The translations under genes were made by a program, and so were the position numbers. A model generated the notes under the pieces. That model saw only the letters and a list, made by a program, of their open reading frames with translations. It did no database searches and was not told where the DNA came from. From contig JALOOO010000020.1 of NCBI GenBank assembly GCA_025454375.1, positions 1 to 35,133 of the forward strand: 35,133 nt of DNA, given 5' to 3'. This stretch comes from Leptolyngbya sp. Prado105 (lineage in GTDB: Bacteria; Cyanobacteriota; Cyanobacteriia; Leptolyngbyales; Leptolyngbyaceae). Numbering within the stretch: position 1 is the stretch's first letter; every line of letters starts with the position of its first letter. Below are positions 2,623 to 16,707 of the stretch, piece after piece.

Positions 2623-3669
2623 ATGGTGCCAGAAGATATTTCCACCTCTAGGAAGTGTGTGAGGAGACAGCCTTCGTTCTGCTGTCCTCAAGAGGAGAAC
2701 CTGAAATCGAATCGTTCAAATCGTCGAATTTCGTCGCTCGCGTTTGGGCTTTCGCTGGGATGGTTGACCAGTAGTCTCGTGCTTCCTGCTCGTGCTGCCG
2801 ATATGTCGATCGGCAATCAGGGCATTCGAGCCAATAAAGACGCGACCTTACAATCAGAATTTGTTGAGTCCCATGGTGCCTACCAATCTACTTTTGGTGT
2901 GATCAACCTGACCACGAAGGAAAAAACCCCTCTCTTGGTTGAGACGAAACCCTCTGATAGCCCAGATACGATTTTCCGCCCGTCTACAAAAATTGATGAT
3001 TTGGGCAGTGAGCTTGATTTTCCGGGTACTCCTGGGAATGCGGTTCCTGAACCTGCAAGACAGTACACCTTCAGACCCAACAATGATTACGTCTTTTATC
3101 TAGAGTCTTCATTTAATGGGCGACCTACTGGGATTTTGTATTCGACTGACAGTTTGAATCCCAATGCTGAACAGCACGTTAAATTCACGGGTGACATCAA
3201 TAGCCTGTGTCAATCGGGTGGGATGATGCTGGGCTGGGATGATACTGGCTCTAGAATTGTTCGCAATCGCGACGCGCAGGATCGGGACTACGACGATTTT
3301 GTTGTGCGGATGCGGGATACGGCATGTCCTGTCGGTGGCGGTGAACCCCCTCCTGTTGTTTCTCCGGTTGGACCGGGTGGCACTCCAGTGGGTCAGTTGC
3401 CTCCAGTTGCTCCAGCCCCAGGTGGGGGGTCGTTCTTGCTGCCCGCATTGCTAGGTGCAGGTGCGATCGCGGGATTGGCAGTTGGTTTAGGCGGGGATGG
3501 AGATAGTGGCGGCGGCGGCGGTGGTGCTGTCGGCGGCGGCGGTGGTGCTGGTGGCGGTGGCGAGGAGCCGATTCCTGAACCCTTGACGATCATGGGATCG
3601 AGTGCAGCCATTGGATTTGCCGCATTGATGCAGCGTCGTCGATCGAAGAAGAAAAACAAGAAAGACTAA
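2623..3669 (+). CDS. Secreted PEP-CTERM-type surface protein with Gly-rich linker
   Basis: The product is 348 residues from the ATG at 2623. A signal peptide is visible after a basic stretch (NRSNRRIS at about 28-35, hydrophobic core to about 56, PARA cleavage site). A beta-rich domain follows, with a DRDYDDFVVRM motif near 220 as in DUF4114-like domains. Next come a Pro/Gly-rich linker with poly-Gly, and a C-terminus with PEP, a hydrophobic stretch and an RRR/KKK tail. That tail is the PEP-CTERM signal read by exosortase; no exosortase gene is in this window. The start is uncertain: GTG at 2659 has an AGGA five bases upstream, and the signal peptide only begins around residue 27. It has its own promoter and terminator, so it is probably monocistronic. 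Confidence 0.8.
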   Translation: MVPEDISTSRKCVRRQPSFCCPQEENLKSNRSNRRISSLAFGLSLGWLTSSLVLPARAADMSIGNQGIRANKDATLQSEFVESHGAYQSTFGVINLTTKEKTPLLVETKPSDSPDTIFRPSTKIDDLGSELDFPGTPGNAVPEPARQYTFRPNNDYVFYLESSFNGRPTGILYSTDSLNPNAEQHVKFTGDINSLCQSGGMMLGWDDTGSRIVRNRDAQDRDYDDFVVRMRDTACPVGGGEPPPVVSPVGPGGTPVGQLPPVAPAPGGGSFLLPALLGAGAIAGLAVGLGGDGDSGGGGGGAVGGGGGAGGGGEEPIPEPLTIMGSSAAIGFAALMQRRRSKKKNKKD

Positions 3670-3689: not shown

Positions 3690-3725
3690 ATATCCCTTCT
3701 TCGGGTTGGAGAAGGGATATTTTGT
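3690..3725 (+). terminator. Rho-independent terminator after the PEP-CTERM gene
   Basis: A perfect 11-bp inverted repeat, atatcccttct at 3690-3700 and agaagggatat at 3710-3720, has a 9-nt loop and is followed by tttgtt. It overlaps a possible TTG start at 3706 for the next gene, which argues for the ATG at 3739 instead. Confidence 0.85.
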
Positions 3726-3738
3726 TGGGGATTTGCTG

Positions 3739-5286
3739 ATGTCTTGGGTCGTCGCAGTTGGGAAAGTCGATCAGGTTCAGGCGACTTGGAAAGAGGCAGG
3801 CATTGCGATCGTTTGCGATACAAAGCTGCCTATTTTAGTCGGTGAGCGCTATGTTGTGATCGCTCAGAATTTTCAGTGGATAGGGTTTGAGTCGCTTGAG
3901 CAGATCGATGCGACCTTTCTCGTGTGGGATCGGCAGTTGCAGCAGATTTGGATGATTCGCGATCGAGTGGGACAGAAGACGCTCTACTACACGACAACGG
4001 GCGAGACTCGCTGGATTGCACCGAGATTGCGATCGCTCAATCCCTATCATTCGCAAGCATTAGATTTAGTCGCACTCCGGGATTATTTGTCCTGTGCGTT
4101 CGTTCCAGGATTTCAGACCTTATGGCGAGATGTGCGAGAAGTTCGACCGGGCACTTGTCGAACTTTCGAGACCGAAAGAATTTATTGGTCACCGCAAGAG
4201 CAAATTCAGAACACAGCAGAATCGCTCGAATGGCATGGGCAAAAAGTACGATCGCGATTAGAGTCACTCGTGCAGGAAATGCTGCCGATTGGAGAGCCTG
4301 TTGGCGCGTATCTCTCTGGCGGGATTGATTCGAGTTGTGTAACGGCACTCGCCGCTAAATTTCACGATCGATCTGTTCATACTTACTCGATTCATTTTGG
4401 GGCGCAGTATCCGAATGAGTTGGAATTTGCGAATCTAGTCGCAGAGCATTGTAAAACTCAGCACCATGTTCTAGAGATTTCGCCTGAGACGATTTGGCGA
4501 ATGTTACCGGAAACATTAGCGTTCTTAGACGATCCGATCGGGGAAGGCTTAACCGTTCCGAATTTGGTGCTGGGGCGTGCGGCAAAAGAATCAGTCGATG
4601 TCGTACTCAATGGAGAAGGAGGAGATCCCTGCTTTGCAGGTCCAAAAAATAAGCCGATGTTACTGAACAGTCTTTATGGTTCGCAGCAGAGCGATATTTC
4701 TGCGTATCTAAGGTCGTTTCAGAAGTGCTTTTCGGATTTACCAAAGCTGTTAAAGCCTGAGATTTACACCGCGATCGCCCAGGCTCCTTCGGTGTTCGAG
4801 TCAGATTTGAATGCGTCTGTGAACTATTTGAATCGATTGATGCTGATCAATTTGAAATTCAAAGGAGCGGATTACATTTTGACAAAAGTAGATGCCTTGA
4901 CATCAGCCGCAGGGATTGAAGGTCGATCGCCGTTATTTGATCCGAGCATGGTGACGTTGAGTTTGCAGATTCCGCCGGAATATAAGCTATCTGGAGCGCA
5001 AGAAAAGGCAGTTCTGAAAGCAGCCGTAGCGGACTTGTTACCCGATAGGATTGTAAATCGTCCGAAGAGTGGCATGATCATGTCGATGCAACAGTGGTTC
5101 CGCACGATTTGGAAACGCAGAGCGCGGGCGTTACTGCTCGATCGTAATGCGGAGATTGCGCCTTATATCAATCAAGCGATCGTCAAGGATTGGCTGGATT
5201 ATCGTGGGGAGATTTGGCATCGGTATGGGTTGAAGCTGTGGTTGCTGGTGACGCTGGAGATTTGGTTAAGAGTCAATCGACGTTAG
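3739..5286 (+). CDS. Asparagine-synthetase-like ATP-dependent amide ligase without the glutaminase cysteine (copy 1)
   Basis: The product is 515 residues from ATG 3739. The C-terminal half is an AsnB-type synthetase domain: the PP-loop SGGIDSS at 193-199 binds ATP and forms an acyl-adenylate. Other family motifs are NGEGGDPCFAG (291-301), GIEGRSPLFDP, and KLSGAQEKAVLK with the expected lysines. The N-terminal half keeps the amidotransferase fold (RDRVGQKTLYY) but begins MSWVVAVG, so the Cys-2 nucleophile that releases ammonia from glutamine is absent. Such enzymes are known as beta-lactam synthetases, lasso-peptide cyclases and other amide ligases. It lies convergent to the minus-strand block holding its paralogue at 7817. 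True asparagine synthesis is unlikely unless free ammonia is used; the substrate is unknown. Confidence 0.8.
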   Translation: MSWVVAVGKVDQVQATWKEAGIAIVCDTKLPILVGERYVVIAQNFQWIGFESLEQIDATFLVWDRQLQQIWMIRDRVGQKTLYYTTTGETRWIAPRLRSLNPYHSQALDLVALRDYLSCAFVPGFQTLWRDVREVRPGTCRTFETERIYWSPQEQIQNTAESLEWHGQKVRSRLESLVQEMLPIGEPVGAYLSGGIDSSCVTALAAKFHDRSVHTYSIHFGAQYPNELEFANLVAEHCKTQHHVLEISPETIWRMLPETLAFLDDPIGEGLTVPNLVLGRAAKESVDVVLNGEGGDPCFAGPKNKPMLLNSLYGSQQSDISAYLRSFQKCFSDLPKLLKPEIYTAIAQAPSVFESDLNASVNYLNRLMLINLKFKGADYILTKVDALTSAAGIEGRSPLFDPSMVTLSLQIPPEYKLSGAQEKAVLKAAVADLLPDRIVNRPKSGMIMSMQQWFRTIWKRRARALLLDRNAEIAPYINQAIVKDWLDYRGEIWHRYGLKLWLLVTLEIWLRVNRR

Positions 5287-5402: not shown

Positions 5403-6506
5403 CTATCCAAAGCTCTCAACTGCGTAAATGCCCCCGCTTGATGTATCCGTCATTAAGAAGAACCCGCCATCTCCTGAATCGCCGCTCATCTGGCTAGCTG
5501 TCATTCCATAGTTCAACACTTGCAGCAATCGCTGAGGCATCAAGGATTCGAGTTCGACAATTTTACCTGCTTCTAGCCATTGCAATGCTTGGGGCGCAAG
5601 TGATTGTCGAGCTTGACGTGGAATCGGTTGTGCAGAAGATTGAATGACTCTAAATCGTTTGCCTTTTAAGACTTGAGCGGGTGAGAGTCCTAAATCAATA
5701 ATTTGAATCGGTCGATCGCGAAACCAGTTTGGCTCCGTTTGCAATTGATGTACTAGATTCACCCCATTCGCATCTGCATTATGAATTGCGTAAACTTTCA
5801 GGTCTGGATTCCGTTGGAGCATGTCCATCACTGTTGAGAAAATGTCTTCCGGATAGCCATTGATGCTGAGAACTGCACAGTTGTTTTCAAAGTGGAAATT
5901 GTTGGCAATCAGGAATTGAGCAATTTCGTCACGATCGCAAATCACCGCGCGATCGAAACTATAAGCGGTGACCTCGGGACTCATCGATCGCGGTTGTGCG
6001 GGTTGTGCGAGGGGCGGAAGGAGCAATATCGTATTGCCATTAATCGTCTGCCATCGACGCAGCCATTCTCGAACTTCAGGCAATGTGATCAGTTCAGGTC
6101 GAGGGTTGTTTCTTTCTTGAGCGCTTTTCCAGGCTCCAGAAAGCGATAAAGCTGCGAGAAATGCTGCGATCATGCCAATCACAGGCTCTGCCGGAAACGT
6201 AAAGATTGAAAGAATGACAAAGATTAAGCTCAGAATGACGAGAACAATCGGATGAGTGGCCGTCGGTTTGTTCAACCGTCGATCGAGCAAATATTGAAGC
6301 TGTCGAGGAGTGAAGTGAATCGTTCCATTATTTGAGATATCTTGCAGCGCTTTTTGAAAGAAGACATCGGTAAACTTTAAGCGTGGATCACGAATCGCAC
6401 TTGGCTCAAAGACGAATCGATGATTGCAGTTTCTACAGCGACCGGAGTTGTTTGTGCGATCTCTTAAATTATTATCGGTTCCACACTGTACGCATTTCAT
6501 CCCCAT
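5403..6506 (-). CDS. Zinc-ribbon, two-helix membrane protein with a Toprim-like (Spo11/TopoVIA-like) domain
   Basis: The product is 367 residues. Residues 5-8 and 24-27 are CxxC pairs forming a zinc ribbon. Two hydrophobic helices follow at about 86-105 and 108-125. In the C-terminal part, the order VICDRDE (188-194), a strand with SINGYPE (214-220), then VYAIHNADANG (238-248) recalls the Toprim fold of Spo11 and TopoVI-A, where the motifs are V.EKE, GKGYPD and A..DADPYG. Acidic residues are partly conserved, so the fold call is tentative and catalysis is doubtful. ATG 6506 has AGGAG eight bases upstream, which fixes the start. It is the last gene of the minus-strand run, 68 bp after the decarboxylase homologue. 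I do not know its role. Confidence 0.65.
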   Translation of the reverse strand: MGMKCVQCGTDNNLRDRTNNSGRCRNCNHRFVFEPSAIRDPRLKFTDVFFQKALQDISNNGTIHFTPRQLQYLLDRRLNKPTATHPIVLVILSLIFVILSIFTFPAEPVIGMIAAFLAALSLSGAWKSAQERNNPRPELITLPEVREWLRRWQTINGNTILLLPPLAQPAQPRSMSPEVTAYSFDRAVICDRDEIAQFLIANNFHFENNCAVLSINGYPEDIFSTVMDMLQRNPDLKVYAIHNADANGVNLVHQLQTEPNWFRDRPIQIIDLGLSPAQVLKGKRFRVIQSSAQPIPRQARQSLAPQALQWLEAGKIVELESLMPQRLLQVLNYGMTASQMSGDSGDGGFFLMTDTSSGGIYAVESFG

Positions 6507-6574: not shown

Positions 6575-7720
6575 TCAAGTTAGCTGTCGCTCTAACAAAA
6601 CTGCATAATCTTCTCGCTTGCGAATCAATCGAGGGATTTGATTTTCAAGTAAAACTTCAGCAGGTCTGAATCGATGTAAGAAATGCGAAGACATCGCATA
6701 GCCATATGCACCCGTATCCAAAATCGCAATCGGATCTCCAACACTTAAAGCAGGCAATTGACACCCCTTTCCCAAATAGTCCCGCGAATAAGTTGTATTG
6801 CCGCAAACGTCACTTAAGTAATTTTCGGAGTCCTTCCAACTCACAATTTCGCGATAGCCCCCATGCACTGCTAGCACAGCTAAATTCGCGATCGAGGTAT
6901 CTACCCCAACAATCTGCTTTTCCCCTTGCCACTTCACCGAAACGACTCTTGCAAGTAAACAACCTGACTCCGCGATCGCTGCTCTCCCTGGCTCAATGAT
7001 CAAGTCAATCCCGCTCAATTTCTGATTCAAGCTCGCCCCAAACTCTTGCCAATCAAATCTCGCTCCCTCTTTACGATAGGGATAACCAAATCCGCCGCCA
7101 AAATCTAGCACGCTCCAATCGGGAAGCTGTTTCGCAGTTGCAATCACCGTATCGACGACCTGGGTAAATGCCTGAGTTGCATTCGTGCCCGTGCCGCGAT
7201 AGAAATGTAAGCCTGTAATGGGAAACTTAGAAACTGCGATCGCATCTCGAAACTCGCTCGGATGCACTCCAATTCGACTTTCTCCAGTAATCTCAGGCAG
7301 GTTCAACCGTAACCCTAGCTCGATTGGGAATCTAGCCATCTCAGAGCATTGCTGCACCTGCGACACACTATCCAAATTAATCCGCCGCACCCCCCAGTTT
7401 AAAATCTGCTCAAAATCCTCCCGACTCAGGTGACTGCCGCTATACACAATCTGATGCGGCTCAAACCCCGCATGAAGCCCCAGATAGACATCTCCGGGCG
7501 TATTCGCATGAAGTCCCCAACCTGCTTTGAGAAACTGCTTGAGTAAGGCAATATTGCCATTCGTCACACTGGCAAAATGAAACTGAGTCTTCGGATAAGA
7601 AATAGCTTGAGTAATTTCGGCGATCGTCGAATTTAAGCGCTCCGCTTGATAGACATACAGCGGCGAACCATAGGTTTCTAATAATTCATCCGCAAGTGCG
7701 TCCGAAAATGGAATTGCCAT
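6575..7720 (-). CDS. Fold-type III decarboxylase homologue lacking the PLP lysine
   Basis: The product is 381 residues from ATG 7720, chosen because an AGG lies seven bases upstream; ATG 7726 is also possible. The architecture is that of diaminopimelate/ornithine decarboxylases: a TIM barrel, GGGFG at 208-212 for the PLP phosphate, EPGR at 243-246, and a C-terminal GAYGYAMSS at 337-345. The PLP lysine normally sits in Y-A-x-K-A-N; here the aligned residues are F-A-S-V-T-N (49-54), giving Val-52. The C-terminal GPxCESxD active-site motif is GNTTYSRD (307-314), so Cys becomes Thr and Glu becomes Tyr. It is unlikely to be a normal PLP decarboxylase. It may be a binding protein, a regulatory partner of the neighbouring ligases, or a re-purposed enzyme. 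Confidence 0.8.
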   Translation of the reverse strand: MAIPFSDALADELLETYGSPLYVYQAERLNSTIAEITQAISYPKTQFHFASVTNGNIALLKQFLKAGWGLHANTPGDVYLGLHAGFEPHQIVYSGSHLSREDFEQILNWGVRRINLDSVSQVQQCSEMARFPIELGLRLNLPEITGESRIGVHPSEFRDAIAVSKFPITGLHFYRGTGTNATQAFTQVVDTVIATAKQLPDWSVLDFGGGFGYPYRKEGARFDWQEFGASLNQKLSGIDLIIEPGRAAIAESGCLLARVVSVKWQGEKQIVGVDTSIANLAVLAVHGGYREIVSWKDSENYLSDVCGNTTYSRDYLGKGCQLPALSVGDPIAILDTGAYGYAMSSHFLHRFRPAEVLLENQIPRLIRKREDYAVLLERQLT

Positions 7721-7816
7721 GATCATGCCTGCATCGATGCACGATCGACATTTTACCGGAGCGAGGATGTTCTACTCTATCAATTCTAGAAACTTTGGAA
7801 TTCTTGATCGCACAAA

Positions 7817-9454
7817 TTACCCAAGTCGATCGAAAGCATTCTGAACTCTTCTCCATCCCTGCCAAACCTGCGGCGGCATCCAAAACGGGTGATCCCAAGC
7901 ATAATTTTCGGCTGACTCTCCAAGTACCTCAATTCGCCAAGCTTGCCACATGATCAGTAGCCATAGATTATTACCCAGGTAGCGATCGCGCAAATTCACT
8001 CCCATCTGCCCCGACATCATCTGTTCTGCAATCTTCGGTTGCCAGCGTCCCTCCGCCCTTAGCACACCCGGATTTAACCATTGACCAATCTCATGCCAAA
8101 ACTCGCCATAGTACCAAGGTCGTAACGGAACTCGCATTCCTCGCTTCTCACGCCAAACGACTTCCGGCGGCAACCAGGATGCAACCGCGCGTTTGAGAAT
8201 GTACTTTTCACAAGCCCCTTGGAGCATCAGTTCACCCGGAATGCTGAATGTCCAACGAGTCAGATCTGGATCACAAAAGAGCGATCGTACCCACAATCCC
8301 TGCGCCAAAGCAGTTGCACGAGGTTGAATATTTTGCGCTCCTTTTAACATCAAGGATGCACGTCTTAACTGAGCGAGCAGAGAAGCGCATTTTTCAGGAT
8401 TTAACGCATCTCCAAGATAAGTTTGGAGATCAATCTCGCGAATACGTTCATAAACAGACTCAGAGAAGATTCGAGATTCATAGCCATACAATCGACCAAA
8501 TGTGTTGAGATACTGCTTCGAGAGTGAAAATTTTTCAGAATCGTAAACCTGATTGGCAATCAGAGGCTTATTCGTCCAGCCTGCAAATAGCTGATCGCCA
8601 TGCTCTCCGTTAAAGACTACTCGAACTTCTTGTGATGCCGCTTGATTCAATAGAAATAGCGCAGCCGTAACACCATCGCCATAAGGCACATCTAATGCTC
8701 TAGCTGTTTTGGAAATCGCTCGAATAATCTGTTTTGCTTGGGCTGGAACAAGAATCAATGGAATTTTGAGATAATCTGCAACTTGCTGTGCATAAGGCAG
8801 TTCTGAATCTTCGACTCCAAAATCGAGGGCATAAGCTCGAACTTTTACACCCGCTTGAACCAGTAAAGCAGCAACGATCGAAGAATCAATTCCCCCAGAC
8901 AGAAACACACCTACAGGCTCATCTGGTAAGTCTGAGATTTGATGAGCGATCGCGGTACTCAAAAGTCCTTGAAGTTGTCTTGCTGCCTCACTCTCATCGT
9001 AAATCGTCTCACCCGACTCGCGCCAATCCTCAAGATCAGACACAGTAAAAGTAAAATCTTGTGTCCAAGTTACTAGCGTTCCAGCCGCGATCGCCGAAAT
9101 TTCTTCAACTGGGCTTAGAGGCGTTGGAACATACGAGAAGCAAGAATAAGCATAGAGTGCAGTGTAACTGACTGTCGGTTGGATCAGGCTTAAAAGAAGC
9201 TTGAGTTGGGTTGAAAACCAAATCGCTGAATCAAGTTTGATCCAATAGAGTGGAACTCGTCCGAATGCGTCTCGACCTAGCGCGAAAGATGTCTCCGTTG
9301 CATTGACCCAGACATCATTGACATTGCTCCTGCCACAAGCACTGAAGCGAGTCTTTGTCATTGCAAATCGGTCTGAACGAATCTCTATTGCTTCGTCTGT
9401 CAGTTTAGCAAGCTTAAGATCAAGGTGATCGCCATAGCCCCAATATCCGAGCAT
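7817..9454 (-). CDS. Asparagine-synthetase-like ATP-dependent amide ligase without the glutaminase cysteine (copy 2)
   Basis: The product is 545 residues and begins MLGYWGYG, so Leu-2 stands exactly where the catalytic Cys-2 of MCG-type amidotransferases would be. The N-terminal domain keeps GRDAFGRVPLYW (60-71). The synthetase domain has the PP-loop SGGIDSS at 186-192 and a GEHGDQLFAGWTNKP motif that closely parallels NGEGGDPCFAGPKNKP in the copy at 3739, so the two are paralogues. ATP-driven amide formation is expected; the amine is probably not glutamine-derived ammonia. Its ATG overlaps the stop codon of the gene upstream in the form TAATG (9452-9456), a mark of translational coupling. 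The decarboxylase homologue follows after 96 bp. Substrate unknown. Confidence 0.8.
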   Translation of the reverse strand: MLGYWGYGDHLDLKLAKLTDEAIEIRSDRFAMTKTRFSACGRSNVNDVWVNATETSFALGRDAFGRVPLYWIKLDSAIWFSTQLKLLLSLIQPTVSYTALYAYSCFSYVPTPLSPVEEISAIAAGTLVTWTQDFTFTVSDLEDWRESGETIYDESEAARQLQGLLSTAIAHQISDLPDEPVGVFLSGGIDSSIVAALLVQAGVKVRAYALDFGVEDSELPYAQQVADYLKIPLILVPAQAKQIIRAISKTARALDVPYGDGVTAALFLLNQAASQEVRVVFNGEHGDQLFAGWTNKPLIANQVYDSEKFSLSKQYLNTFGRLYGYESRIFSESVYERIREIDLQTYLGDALNPEKCASLLAQLRRASLMLKGAQNIQPRATALAQGLWVRSLFCDPDLTRWTFSIPGELMLQGACEKYILKRAVASWLPPEVVWREKRGMRVPLRPWYYGEFWHEIGQWLNPGVLRAEGRWQPKIAEQMMSGQMGVNLRDRYLGNNLWLLIMWQAWRIEVLGESAENYAWDHPFWMPPQVWQGWRRVQNAFDRLG

Positions 9455-11489: not shown

Positions 11490-14400
11490 CTAACATTTTC
11501 CAAATCCGCCGCCTCCAGGCGTTTCGATCACAAATGAGTCGCCTGGAAACATTTGAATCTCTGCTTTTCCAGCAATCTCCTGAATCTCACCCTGGTGTCG
11601 CTCAATCCAATTTCGCCCGATCTTTCCTGCTGCTCCTCCTGCTAATCCAAAGGGCGGAATTCGGCGATGTCCTGACAAAATTGCAGCCGTCATGCACGAT
11701 CGAAATTTAATCCGCCGGATCACACCATTGCCTCCGGAGTATTTTCCCTGTCCGCCGCTCCCTGAACGGATTTCAAACGACTCTACAAAGACCGGAAAAC
11801 GCCATTCTAAAATTTCAGGATCGCTCAGGCGCGAATTGGTCATGTGAGTCTGCACGGCATCTGTCCCATCAAAAGTTGCTCCTGCTCCAGATCCCCCGCA
11901 AATCGTTTCATAGTACTGATACTGCTGATTGCCAAAAGTGAAATTGTTCATCGTGCCTTGAGAGGCTGCCAGGATGCCTAATGCACCGTAAAGAGCATTT
12001 GCGATCGCCTGTGATGTCTCTACATTTCCTGCAACGACTGCCGCCGGGTATTTTGGATTGAGCAAACATCCTTCTGGCACAATAATGTCTAAAGGTTTCA
12101 AACACCCTGCATTCAGCGGAATGTCATCTTGAACTAAAGTCCGGAAAACATAGAGAACGACTGCTTTGCAAATGGCTAGCGGCGCATTTAAGTTGGAGGA
12201 TTGTTGGGGAGAAGTTCCAGTAAAATCAACGATCGCACTTGAGCGATCTCGGATTTTGACGCTGACTTGAATTCGATTGCCATCATCCATTTCATAAGTA
12301 AAATCGCCAGCTTGTAAAACTGTAATCGCTTTGCGGACAGATGCTTCAGCATTGTCTTGAATGTGCTGCATGTAGGCTTGAACGGTTTCTAAACTATAGC
12401 GATCGACCATTTGTAAAAGCTGCTGTGATCCTCTCGCATTAGCTGCAATTTGAGCTTGTAAGTCTGCAATATTCTGCTGAGGATTGCGAACAGGATAAGA
12501 ATGATTTGTCAAAATATCAAGGAGTTCTACTTCGCGAAATCGACCTTGATTCACAAGCTGAAAGTTATCGAGCAAAATGCCTTCTTGCTCGATCGAGGTA
12601 CTATTCGGCGGCATGGAACCGGGTGTAATTCCGCCGACATCCGCATGATGACCTCGCGAAGCAACATAAAAGCAAGGTTCTGAATGGATAAATACAGGCG
12701 TGATGACTGTGATATCAGGTAAATGTGTCCCACCATTGTAGGGATTGTTGGATACATAGACATCGCCCGGTTTAAGCTGGTTTGCTTTCGCTTCGATCAA
12801 GCTACGAATGCTCTCACTCATAGAGCCAAGATGAACCGGAATATGAGGCGCATTGGCAACGAGTTGACCTGCTCGATCGAAGATCGCACAAGAGAAATCT
12901 AATCGCTCTTTGATGTTGACAGAATAGCTCGTATTTTGCAGTGTAATACCCATCTCTTCAGCGATCGCTCGAATCAGATTATTGAAAATCTCAAGTAAAA
13001 CTGGATCAGGAACATCAGAATGAGCAATCTTTTGTTCTGTCGATTGTTCTACTTTTTCTAAAATCAAATGATTCTGAGCATTCACCTGAGCCGTCCAACC
13101 GGGTTCAATCACATTAGTTCCAGTCGGTTCGATAATTAATGCTGCTCCAGTAATACGATCTCCTACTTTCATGTCTTCGCGCCGATATACAGGAGCATTG
13201 TGCCATTGACCTTTTGTGTAGATGGAAACCGTCTCGATCGCGCTCAAAGTTCGATCACAATTTACAACGGGTTCAACTGGCATAGGAGACTGTTTGATCG
13301 CTTCAACTGAAATGGCTTCAACAATCAAGGCTTTCTCCATGGTAAAGCCATATCGCTGTGTGTAAGCTTGCTCGAATCGACTCTGCATTTCCTCGATCGT
13401 TCCAAATTCGATCAAGATTGATGTGTCTGTTCCCTCGTACTTAAGATGAACTGTTTTGAGAATTTCAGAGTCCCCGATTTCGGCTTGAGCTTCTGCAACG
13501 ATCGGATCAAATTGCTCATCGAGGGGTTCGCCCAATTTTGCTTCAATGGCTCGTTCTTTTAGCGATCGTACATCTGCTAGCCCAATTCCATAAGCAGACA
13601 GCACACCTGCATAAGGATGAATAAAAATTCGCTTCATGCCTAAAGCTTCAGCAATTAAACAAGCATGTTGCCCTCCGGCTCCCCCAAAGCAGCAGAGCGT
13701 ATAGTCTGTGACATCATAACCGCGCTGAACTGAGATTTTCTTGATTGCAGTTGCCATTTTGTCGATCGCGATTGCTAGAAATCCTTCTGCAACTTGTTCG
13801 GGAACCTCTCCAATCTCAGAAAATTTCTGAACCACAATTTCATGATCTAAAGGCAAGTTTCCGGCTTGACCAAACACAGCAGGGAAGTAAGCAGGCTGAA
13901 GCTTCCCGACCATGACGTTGCAATCTGTGACCGTGAGTTCTCCGCCTCGTCGATAGCAAGCTGGACCCGGATTTGCGCCTGCTGATTCGGGTCCGACTCG
14001 ATATCTCGCGCCATCAAACCGCAGAATCGAGCCGCCGCCTGCTGCAACGGTGTGAATCGCCATCATCGGCGATCGTAGTCTCACGCCAGCGACTTCTGTT
14101 TCAAAGGTGCGCTCATACTGTCCGTTGAAATGTGAAACATCTGTCGATGTCCCTCCCATGTCGAAGCCAATAATTTTGCCAAAGCCTGCTAGCGTGCTTG
14201 TCTTAACGGCTCCCACAATTCCACCTGCTGGACCTGAGAGAATACTATCTTTACCCTGGAATTGTTGAGCATCAACTAAGCCTCCATTCGACTGCATAAA
14301 CATCAGATCAGTGTGGTCTAATGCCGTTGAAACTTGATCGACATAACGACGTAAGATCGGAGAGAGGTAAGCATCGACGACGGTTGTATCGCCTCGACTG

Positions 14401-15008
14401 ACGAGTTTCATCAATGGGCTGACTTGATGGGAGAGAGAGATCTGAGTGAATCCGATGCGGCTTACAATGTCTGCTAGCTGCTCTTCATGTTTGGGATAGC
14501 GATAGCCATGCAGTAATACGATCGCACAACTGCGAATGCCATTTTCATAGGCAGAAGTCAGCGATCGTAGAAATTCTTCGCTGATCTGAAGGGGGCAAAT
14601 TTCCTCGCCCTGAGCGCTGTACCGTTCTTCGACTTCGATTACCTGTTCATACAACATCTCTGGTAGCAAAATCTGCTGTGCAAAGATATTGGGGCGATTC
14701 TGATAACCAATTCTCAACGCATCTCGAAAGCCTTTTGTGATTAAAAGTAAAGTACGATCGCCCTGACGCTCTAGTAGCGCATTCGTTGCAACGGTGGTTC
14801 CCATTTTTACAACGGTGATTTGCTCTGAGGGAATGATCTGATCGTTCGCTAGTCCCAGCACATCCCGAATGCCTTGAATGGGAGCGTCTGCATAGCATTC
14901 TGGATTTTCAGACAGCAGTTTATGAACCACGATCGTTCCATCTGGACTTTGGGCGACGACATCGGTAAATGTGCCGCCCCGATCAATCCAAAACTGCCAG
15001 CCTGCCAT
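11490..15008 (-). CDS. Fused 5-oxoprolinase/hydantoinase (HyuA-HyuB type), ATP-hydrolysing
   Basis: The 1172-residue product carries a hydantoinase/oxoprolinase A part (about 1-640) and a B part (about 655-1165) in one chain, as in eukaryotic 5-oxoprolinase. That enzyme opens 5-oxo-L-proline to glutamate at the cost of ATP. The N-terminal DRGGTFTDVV (9-18) and the internal GFDMGGTSTDVS are the ATP-binding signatures of the acetate-kinase/actin-like fold. The B part has LRxDFSCAIFD-like and GGTHLPDITV motifs and a C-terminal PGGGGFG. The ATG at 15008 has GAAAGG seven bases upstream and lies 26 bp inside the end of the protease gene. The substrate could also be a hydantoin or a related cyclic amide. 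Confidence 0.9.
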   Translation of the reverse strand: MAGWQFWIDRGGTFTDVVAQSPDGTIVVHKLLSENPECYADAPIQGIRDVLGLANDQIIPSEQITVVKMGTTVATNALLERQGDRTLLLITKGFRDALRIGYQNRPNIFAQQILLPEMLYEQVIEVEERYSAQGEEICPLQISEEFLRSLTSAYENGIRSCAIVLLHGYRYPKHEEQLADIVSRIGFTQISLSHQVSPLMKLVSRGDTTVVDAYLSPILRRYVDQVSTALDHTDLMFMQSNGGLVDAQQFQGKDSILSGPAGGIVGAVKTSTLAGFGKIIGFDMGGTSTDVSHFNGQYERTFETEVAGVRLRSPMMAIHTVAAGGGSILRFDGARYRVGPESAGANPGPACYRRGGELTVTDCNVMVGKLQPAYFPAVFGQAGNLPLDHEIVVQKFSEIGEVPEQVAEGFLAIAIDKMATAIKKISVQRGYDVTDYTLCCFGGAGGQHACLIAEALGMKRIFIHPYAGVLSAYGIGLADVRSLKERAIEAKLGEPLDEQFDPIVAEAQAEIGDSEILKTVHLKYEGTDTSILIEFGTIEEMQSRFEQAYTQRYGFTMEKALIVEAISVEAIKQSPMPVEPVVNCDRTLSAIETVSIYTKGQWHNAPVYRREDMKVGDRITGAALIIEPTGTNVIEPGWTAQVNAQNHLILEKVEQSTEQKIAHSDVPDPVLLEIFNNLIRAIAEEMGITLQNTSYSVNIKERLDFSCAIFDRAGQLVANAPHIPVHLGSMSESIRSLIEAKANQLKPGDVYVSNNPYNGGTHLPDITVITPVFIHSEPCFYVASRGHHADVGGITPGSMPPNSTSIEQEGILLDNFQLVNQGRFREVELLDILTNHSYPVRNPQQNIADLQAQIAANARGSQQLLQMVDRYSLETVQAYMQHIQDNAEASVRKAITVLQAGDFTYEMDDGNRIQVSVKIRDRSSAIVDFTGTSPQQSSNLNAPLAICKAVVLYVFRTLVQDDIPLNAGCLKPLDIIVPEGCLLNPKYPAAVVAGNVETSQAIANALYGALGILAASQGTMNNFTFGNQQYQYYETICGGSGAGATFDGTDAVQTHMTNSRLSDPEILEWRFPVFVESFEIRSGSGGQGKYSGGNGVIRRIKFRSCMTAAILSGHRRIPPFGLAGGAAGKIGRNWIERHQGEIQEIAGKAEIQMFPGDSFVIETPGGGGFGKC

Positions 15009-16707
15009 ACAAGAACCTTTCTAACGAGATTCTTGTGATTTTACCTTTTCTTAACTGTGCGATCGTGGCGGAAATTCCTTGATAGGCTTTGGAATTGATC
15101 TGCCCGTTTTCACGCAGCAAGTTCATCACAGATTCATAAGCGACGATCGCGTTGCGCAGATCTCCCATCCGCTCGTATGCCATGGCTTGAACTGTATAGG
15201 ATTCACTCAGTTTTGGATCAAGTTGAATCGCTTTATTGGCATCTTTAATCGCATTTTGAGGATTGTTCAATCCTAGCCAAGCAAAGGCTCGATCGGCATA
15301 GGCGATCGCAAAGTTTGGATTGATCTCGATCGCTCTTGTACAGTCACTCATAGCAGCTTGATAGCGATCCATTCCCAACTGCACAAAACAGCGCAAATCA
15401 TAGGTGACTGCTGAATTTGGATCAAGTGCAATTGAACGATCGAAGTCTTTCAAGGCATTGGGCAATTGCTGTAATCCAAGATAGCTTCGCCCTCGTTCTC
15501 GGTAAGCGACTGCATCTTTGGGTTGGAGCGCGATTCCTGCTGTGAAGTCATTGACCGAGGCTTGATAGTTCCCCAGACGGCTATGAGTCATGCCTCGATT
15601 AAAGAGTAAGCTTGGAGTTTGAGGGGCAAGTCGCAGGGCTTCAGTATAGTCTGAGATCGCACCTTTTAAATCATTCCATTTCGCCCTCATTAATGCTCGT
15701 GATGATAAAGCATCACTGCGATCGGGATTGAGTCTAAGGACAGCATCAAAGTCGCGCATTGCACCCGCTCGATCGCCCATTCTTGCAAGCAGAGCCGCTC
15801 TCGTTCGGTAGGGCATCATCAGATTTGGATTTAGCTCGATCGCTTTTGTCAAATCAGCGAGTGCCGCTTGAGGTTGCTCAATTTGGCTGACTCCTCGTAA
15901 AAAGTAATCTTCAGCCGTTTGAGGGGTGCTAAGTTGGGGACGGGTTCCAGTCACAGCAGAACGATCGACATTCAAGGGCAGCGTGGTAAGTTTTGGCGAT
16001 TGTTGAATTAACTCTGAGACGAAATTTGTGGGGATGCCTGCTAGAAGCCCCATATCACCGGACTGTCCAAAGATTGCAATCACGCGCCCGCTCGCATCAA
16101 AAATCGGGCTGCCACTCATTCCTGGAGCCGCGATCGTCGTAAACATCAAGGAGTACCCTTCACGATGCGGGTCGTTGACCTCAGAGGTGAAGAATCCTTT
16201 GTGAAATGCAACAGGTTCTGTCCCAGGAGATTGCTTGGGATTGCCTGGATATCCATTAATCCAGATCAACTCTCGACTTGCAAGCTGAGTCGAATCCCCT
16301 AATGTTGCAACTGGATAGTTTTGCAGTGATTGAAACAGAACAACCGCGACATCAGGAATGCCTTTTGGCTGTTCAAATGTATGAGTATTTACGATTGGAT
16401 AGCGTTGACCATTGGCAGTGCGGATCTGGATTTTGAGTGTGCGATCGCATTGTCCTGCTAAATCCAAATTACAAATGACATGTCGATTGGTTAATACTGC
16501 ATAGGTATTGCCTTGCTTTGCAATAATCACGCCTGATCCCGTTTGGCTGCCGTCTTTACTAAATCCCAATACTTGAACAGTGAGCGGTTGCGCCGTTTGC
16601 TGGATTTCTGATATGGAGAGAACTGCTTTTGCAAAAGTAGTAGAAGCTTGACTAAATGCGAGTGTGATGCCGGACAGAAAGCCGACTATCAGACGAGTTC
16701 GAGTCAT
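14983..16707 (-). CDS. Secreted trypsin-like serine protease with TPR repeats
   Basis: The 574-residue product starts with a signal peptide (about 1-27, ending TTFAKA). A chymotrypsin-fold protease domain follows to about 245. The catalytic triad is visible as His-76 (NRHV), Asp-119 (PDVAVV) and Ser-198 (GMSGSPIFD). From about 265 to 555 there are about eight tetratricopeptide repeats with A..D...AI.L.P patterns, a protein-binding scaffold. This domain order is common in cyanobacteria and suggests periplasmic proteolysis with recruited partners. The ATG at 16707 has GAGGG seven bases upstream. Its 3' end overlaps the oxoprolinase start, so the two are probably co-transcribed although no biochemical link is obvious. 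Confidence 0.88.
   Translation of the reverse strand: MTRTRLIVGFLSGITLAFSQASTTFAKAVLSISEIQQTAQPLTVQVLGFSKDGSQTGSGVIIAKQGNTYAVLTNRHVICNLDLAGQCDRTLKIQIRTANGQRYPIVNTHTFEQPKGIPDVAVVLFQSLQNYPVATLGDSTQLASRELIWINGYPGNPKQSPGTEPVAFHKGFFTSEVNDPHREGYSLMFTTIAAPGMSGSPIFDASGRVIAIFGQSGDMGLLAGIPTNFVSELIQQSPKLTTLPLNVDRSAVTGTRPQLSTPQTAEDYFLRGVSQIEQPQAALADLTKAIELNPNLMMPYRTRAALLARMGDRAGAMRDFDAVLRLNPDRSDALSSRALMRAKWNDLKGAISDYTEALRLAPQTPSLLFNRGMTHSRLGNYQASVNDFTAGIALQPKDAVAYRERGRSYLGLQQLPNALKDFDRSIALDPNSAVTYDLRCFVQLGMDRYQAAMSDCTRAIEINPNFAIAYADRAFAWLGLNNPQNAIKDANKAIQLDPKLSESYTVQAMAYERMGDLRNAIVAYESVMNLLRENGQINSKAYQGISATIAQLRKGKITRISLERFLYGRLAVLD

Follow-up and report, generated by a model that had tools for sequence, protein, structure and literature searches.

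The window analyzed in this study, that is, the whole 35,133-nucleotide stretch of Leptolyngbya sp. Prado105 DNA, encodes a protein with the fold of diaminopimelate decarboxylase (LysA) and with valine at the position of the PLP lysine. The loss of the lysine, its conservation, the single clade of Lys-less proteins, and the co-occurrence of this protein, pLysA, with a constant set of partners are established from the sequences, and it is almost certain that pLysA is a non-canonical protein kept by selection. The partners are two asparagine-synthetase-like ligases, AsnB1 and AsnB2, and the TOPRIM protein ZnTop, and the four proteins very probably act together. The fuller reading that we prefer, in which pLysA is a selected, non-decarboxylating LysA paralogue and an obligate part of this four-protein system, with a putative mechanism involving a protein tail and a ligand, has in our estimate an even chance of being right. 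The features considered are listed in Table 1.

Table 1. Features of the window and of related loci (positions without a locus label refer to the window)
Feature	Position	Strand	Remarks
AsnB2, second AsnB-like ligase without Cys1	3706..5286	+	convergent; actual start possibly downstream of the listed TTG
ZnTop: Zn ribbon, hydrophobic hairpin, TopoVI-A-type TOPRIM, disordered C-tail	5403..6506	-	MKC start at 6500
ZnTop C-terminal Ser-Phe-Gly-stop	5403..5414	-	
pLysA, Lys-less LysA-fold protein, 383 aa	6575..7726	-	ATG at 7726
GNTTYSRD, pLysA residues 309-316, replacing GPxCESGD	6779..6802	-	T312 codon 6791-6793
Val54 codon (GTG) at the PLP-lysine position	7565..7567	-	HMMER alignment and family alignment
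AsnB1, asparagine-synthetase-like ligase without glutaminase Cys1	7817..9454	-	SGGxDSS and R-x-K-R-G-M kept
208-aa protein, one apparent membrane segment	9454..10080	-	touches AsnB1; first gene of cassette
Rhizobial plasmid Lys-less (Met) relatives of pLysA	L135:9004-10197; L137:6941-8047		
ZnTop tandem arrays	L122:9200-15741; L115:9200-12645; L040:10291-14340; L095; L121		

The pLysA protein is homologous to LysA over its full length (TIGR01048, E-value 1.7e-69, in a search of Pfam and NCBIfam profiles), and its score of 234.3 bits lies 64 bits under the equivalog cut-off of 297.9 bits. Residues are numbered here from the ATG at 7726, hence Val54; an alternative in-frame ATG at 7720 underlies the coordinates 6575-7720 and the numbering Val-52 used in the first-pass annotation of this DNA. 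That annotation had placed a valine at the PLP lysine and a threonine at the catalytic cysteine, and the phmmer alignment with the LysA chains of the PDB agrees on both: FASVTNGN falls on YAVKANFN of 2p3e and FAVKANNN of 2yxx, and GNTTYSRD falls on the GPxCESGD segment. The GGGFG, EPGR, and GAYGYAMSS motifs are retained, as it had stated, and so are Thr179 and Tyr341. Further replacements beyond its list are Tyr176 for the second His of HxHIGS, Val284 for the Arg of RPxxY, Tyr313 for the Glu that follows the catalytic Cys, and Arg315 where the Gly of SGD stands in LysA. We take the roles of these positions to be those in the established ODC and LysA structures, namely the Schiff base for Lys, stacking for His, the ring nitrogen for Glu, the phosphate for Gly, Arg, Tyr, and Ser, catalysis for Cys, and the substrate for Arg.

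The PLP lysine of YAxKANxN, which defines LysA, is thus Val54 in every orthologue, and the catalytic Cys-Glu of GPxCESxD gives way to GNTTYSRD, which is invariant where readable; judged by these tests, pLysA should not be filed as LysA. The fold-III residues for the phosphate and the ring nitrogen of PLP (GGG, EPGR, and the Tyr of GAYG) are all present and invariant. Two further fold-III genes are found in the same genome, one encoding a Lys-bearing LysA (YASKAWNC, CESGD) and the other speA-like, judged by its length. Because the genome has this separate Lys-bearing LysA, the window protein is a paralogue.

Among 97 related genomes, 20 orthologues were identified, with best segments that are 61-87% identical, and every one of them has both Val and Thr. 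A scan of GTDB species genomes yielded 80 more pLysA loci, all of them cyanobacterial, with carriers that include Nostoc, Anabaena, Microcoleus, Okeania, Calothrix, and Chamaesiphon. The first-pass annotation had proposed to check whether the two residues are conserved among homologues: V54 is found in 102 of 102 sequences and T312 in all 101 that are readable, the latter being partly selected for, since one of the two motifs of the GTDB scan, [VI]CGNTTYS, contains Thr312 (Val54 was not selected in this way). Both residues are also present in 36/36 sequences from a whole-protein search with no motif selection, a set that partly overlaps the 102.

Over the 102 sequences, Val54 is encoded by all four GTN codons (GTG 17, GTT 36, GTC 41, GTA 8). 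Wherever readable, T312, R315, H73, Y176, E245, R248, and Y341 are likewise fixed, with synonymous changes in their codons. Comparison of the window gene with a same-genus orthologue by the Nei-Gojobori method gives dN 0.080 and dS 0.907, that is, dN/dS of about 0.09, at the lower end of the range observed for pLysA (about 0.09-0.35). The gene is present in about 9% of the sampled genomes of the phylum (34/386). The earlier view that a scaffold has been conserved while the lysine was lost is upheld by the fixed substitutions and kept motifs, and its claim of selection, not decay, by the four Val54 codons, the low dN/dS, and the separate LysA of the genome. A homologue with the normal lysine in the same neighbourhood and a second lysine in the predicted pocket had been named as findings that would speak against this view. 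None of the neighbouring homologues carries the lysine, and K265, the one lysine invariant in the family, is shared with Lys-bearing LysA and so does not stand in for the lost one.

The invariant residues fall into two groups. G210-212, T179, E245, R248, and Y341, assigned to the PLP phosphate and ring nitrogen, have stayed while the Lys, Cys, Glu, and substrate Arg are gone, and a new invariant set, H73, Y176, C308, T311-T312, and R315, has replaced the old catalytic one. With this exchange beside a retained phosphate and ring-nitrogen site, pLysA could bind another ligand or work by a Lys-independent chemistry, and the complete loss of catalysis proposed in the first-pass annotation is only one possible reading.

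In other classes of the phylum, the pLysA proteins of genomes G103 (39% identity) and G133 again have Val and Thr, in the motif forms GASTHSRD and GNTTHSRD. More distant relatives were found in rhizobia: a Mesorhizobium plasmid protein, 31% identical and annotated as alanine racemase, has FATMANDN, with Met at the lysine position, and GNSTYSRD, and a Sinorhizobium protein annotated as diaminopimelate decarboxylase has FATMANPS, also with Met, and GRTTFSRD. Both rhizobial genes directly follow genes for a SPASM radical SAM protein and a B12-binding radical SAM protein, which is a second, different context of the Lys-less clade. In the IQ-TREE phylogeny, which carries a long-branch warning for some rows, the Lys-less rows split from all Lys-bearing rows with support of 100/99, and one ancestral loss of the lysine is the simplest reading of the sequences.

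The AlphaFold2 model of pLysA, built with 41 window and locus sequences (pLDDT 86.3, pTM 0.86), has the full LysA fold. Its best solved matches by Foldseek and VIA-align are LysA 4xg1 (Z 37.3, rmsd 2.8 over 371), LysA 2p3e and 2yxx, and BtrK, and with a VIA Z of 37 to LysA the model belongs to the alanine-racemase/ODC type of fold III. In one cyanobacterial genome (L170:9103-10959, minus strand) AsnB1 residues ~1-411 are fused in frame to pLysA residues ~167-382; the fusion has no N-terminal half of pLysA, Val54 included, and the ZnTop gene comes next. Another cyanobacterial decarboxylase-like protein of fold III (L027-L029) has kept the lysine in YAMKSN and has GNINEALD at the Cys-Glu site.

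The first-pass annotation was right about the substitutions and about selection and missed the conserved multi-gene system to which pLysA belongs. In 100 neighbourhoods, the usual gene order is the 208-aa protein (84 loci), AsnB1 (90), pLysA (100), ZnTop (95), and, often, AsnB2 (54), which is mostly convergent to the rest of the cassette; ZnTop is sometimes present in tandem copies. No other gene family in these neighbourhoods is nearly as common. The phyletic profile of 97 related genomes, 21 of which have pLysA, points the same way: AsnB1 and ZnTop are each present in 20 of the 21 genomes with pLysA and absent from all 76 that do not have it (Fisher p 7.7e-20 for each), and AsnB2 occurs in 21/21 and 1/76 (p 2.2e-20), these p values coming from related genomes and thus not being strict probabilities. 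The sole AsnB1 miss is G035, an 84% complete genome with a 3.3-kb contig, and the sole ZnTop miss, G032, ends at a contig edge. The 208-aa protein is found in the pLysA genomes and also, without the other members, in six further genomes, and hence is not specific to the cassette.

Linkage alone is not sufficient to explain this co-occurrence, because the parts are retained when they are scattered. For instance, genome G002 has kept all of them 1.3-3.6 Mb apart, with pLysA and ZnTop at 4.72 Mb, AsnB1 at 6.06 Mb, and AsnB2 at 2.51 Mb, and in many genomes AsnB2 lies on a separate contig. Conversely, pLysA, AsnB1, ZnTop, and AsnB2 are adjacent in G133, from another class, and in Gloeothece verrucosa PCC 7822 the whole cassette is located on a linear plasmid (L134:6208-15000), near the gene of a protelomerase and a short gene of the PEP-CTERM type. 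Comparison of the cassette with the PADLOC defence models gave only a generic QueC match. A phage origin was considered and rejected, as no relatives were found in viral contigs.

Both ligases retain the SGGxDSS ATP-pyrophosphatase domain (Pfam PF00733), with the motif in essentially all AsnB1 and AsnB2 proteins, and R-x-K-[RS]-G-M is kept in nearly all. The glutaminase start MCG[IL] is found in none of 91 AsnB1 and none of 56 AsnB2 sequences; the AsnB1 of G133, from the sister lineage, starts with MSGICGW and has Ser where Cys1 would be. Since the pyrophosphatase motif is kept and the MCG[IL] start is absent, both are expected from their sequences to activate a carboxylate with ATP and not to draw ammonia from glutamine by the usual route.

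The fourth protein, ZnTop, begins with a zinc ribbon of four cysteines and ends in a tail of low confidence in the structural model. The TOPRIM profile PF21180 matches 37/39 members at E <= 0.01 (best 3.9e-7), and the model aligns with Topo VI-A (1d3y; VIA Z 11.8, rmsd 4.1 over 168), which makes the domain Topo VI-A/Spo11-type; a PDB sequence-profile search with ZnTop gave no matches. At the position that we take, by comparison with Topo VI-A, to be that of the DxD metal motif, most members have HDC[SNT]P and the window protein has HNAD.

The ZnTop C-terminus is nearly fixed. Phe-Gly ends 103 of the 105 full-length copies, and SFG ends 99 of the 116 ORFs overall; the two deviating ends, ESLV and DIYQKC, may be frame changes. 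Counted from ELES, the tail is 37 to 67 residues long, and each of its last two positions has an entropy of 0.16 bits, against about 2-3 bits over most of its length. The ZnTop proteins of the two distant lineages, which are 33-37% identical in the shared part, terminate in SDSDFG and GGGDSFG. No such fixed end is seen in the other cassette proteins compared. In three genomes, the matches to a stringent ZnTop-tail pattern did not outnumber those to a reversed-pattern control, and among those checked only ZnTop lay at real ORF ends, four other in-frame matches being the ends of very short frames. The tandem arrays comprise two to several copies, some of them broken, and the intact copies keep -SFG.

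We suggest the following scheme for the four proteins. The AsnB-like ligases would adenylate the carboxylate of the C-terminal Gly of ZnTop and couple it with an amine, and pLysA would use its kept phosphate cradle to bind, without a Schiff base, either the -FG tail or a ligand that is PLP-like or an amino acid; it would thereby present one partner of the ligase reaction, which would take place at the membrane. The activation of the ZnTop carboxylate is inferred by analogy with known AS-like enzymes for which the site of adenylation is the carboxylate at a peptide C-terminus (PMC13060819). On this analogy, the -FG carboxylate is a tentative candidate for the ligase substrate, with the odds rather against it; the -FG end could instead be a docking tail. 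The binding of a PLP-like ligand by pLysA, to which the retained residues point, has a prospect only a little short of even. The whole scheme, that is, a new bacterial tail modification or ligation in which AsnB-type ligases couple the Phe-Gly of ZnTop to an amine while pLysA presents a ligand non-covalently, is unlikely to hold in every part.

Alternatively, pLysA could be a fold-III enzyme with a new lysine-independent chemistry, with non-covalently bound PMP, PLP, or PLP-substrate adduct and with H73, Y176, C308, T312, and R315 as its working residues. The invariant phosphate and ring-nitrogen residues and the exchange of one invariant set for another are consistent with such an enzyme, as are the biosynthetic-looking rhizobial operons with SPASM and B12-binding radical SAM genes, and the Lys-to-His PMP enzymes of fold type I, for instance ColD, offer an analogy for Lys-free chemistry. 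However, the lysine position holds Val or Met and no base replacement, the conserved partners are ligases and not a PMP-recycling reductase, and the cyanobacterial cassette suggests no substrate or product; we therefore regard this explanation as improbable.

It is quite unlikely, too, that pLysA is a ligand-free scaffold or regulatory pseudoenzyme that binds AsnB1 or ZnTop with its fold as a mere binding surface. An invariant phosphate cradle would be superfluous in a pure scaffold; antizyme inhibitors have lost several of the cradle residues, and pLysA keeps them. Such a role would agree with the conserved position of AsnB1 beside pLysA in 90/100 loci and has a precedent in AZIN1 and ADC, non-enzymatic ODC paralogues in which the decarboxylase fold serves another purpose and of which mouse ADC has no lysine (PMC2748086). 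Unlike pLysA, which belongs to the LysA branch, these proteins belong to the animal ODC branch and bind antizyme.

The idea that pLysA is an ordinary diaminopimelate decarboxylase whose catalytic lysine has moved to another position has the whole-length LysA homology in its favor and is very improbable, as a normal LysA is present in the genome, the active-site Cys, Glu, Arg, and His are gone as well, and a search of the family-invariant lysines for a compensating one gave only K265, which is no substitute because the Lys-bearing LysA has it too. A decaying pseudogene or a sequencing artefact, for which nothing speaks beyond the loss of catalytic residues, is rejected as a negligible possibility in view of the same substitutions in more than 100 intact orthologues, together with codon variation, purifying selection, and a conserved operon.

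pLysA and its partners also differ from the closest known systems. The closest solved structures are those of LysA (TIGR01048; 2p3e, 2yxx, 4xg1), which shares the whole fold with GGGFG, EPGR, and GAYGY, whereas in pLysA the PLP lysine, the Cys-Glu pair, the stacking His, and the substrate Arg are replaced and the score is under the family cut-off. The beta-lactam synthetase/lasso cyclase branch of AsnB proteins, which is likewise not known to carry Cys1, shares the adenylating domain (weak matches to 1jgt and 1q15), but the cassette contains no precursor peptide, protease, or small-molecule pathway. The XrtA/PEP-CTERM decarboxylase and amidotransferase (TIGR03099, TIGR03108) likewise combine a fold-III decarboxylase with AsnB-like proteins, and a PEP-CTERM protein is found nearby in the window, but no acyl carrier, ligase, or exosortase is linked at the cassette, and the XrtA-associated decarboxylase (TIGR03099) keeps its lysine; membership in the exosortase A system, considered for this similarity, was dropped because the scores are far below both cut-offs. 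The RiPP systems with AS-like enzymes for C-terminal amidation or nitrile formation (PesC, nitrilobacillin; PMC13060819) resemble the cassette in having AsnB-type ligases beside a gene whose protein product has a recognisable C-terminus, and the PesC cluster also has a pseudoenzyme regulator. They differ in that here both ligases are without Cys1, the chemistry is putative, and the tailed ZnTop is a membrane TOPRIM protein of 365-445 aa and not a short peptide.

Lys-less fold-III pseudoenzymes are known in animals; the bacterial clade and the system around it are undescribed in the literature searched, where we found neither a bacterial Lys-less fold-III clade fixed across a phylum and beyond nor the four-protein set. 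Searches for a cyanobacterial LysA/AsnB/TOPRIM system gave nothing relevant in a literature coverage that mostly excluded subscription papers and preprints. The partners of pLysA stay the same even where the genes are dispersed, which opens its role to a direct knockout test in culturable cyanobacteria. Should the two ligases indeed act on the -FG end, the system would represent a new kind of protein-tail chemistry, assembled from repurposed folds that have each lost a canonical catalytic residue. The database labels of pLysA-type proteins (diaminopimelate decarboxylase, decarboxylase, alanine racemase) mislead metabolic models.

Elsewhere in the window, a PEP-CTERM protein with a DUF4114 domain (2623-3669, plus strand) adjoins AsnB2. 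On the minus strand, positions 11490-15008 encode a single-chain fused hydantoinase A/B (oxoprolinase-like) of 1172 aa, which has a 26-base overlap with the ORF of a trypsin-like/TPR protein (14983-16707).
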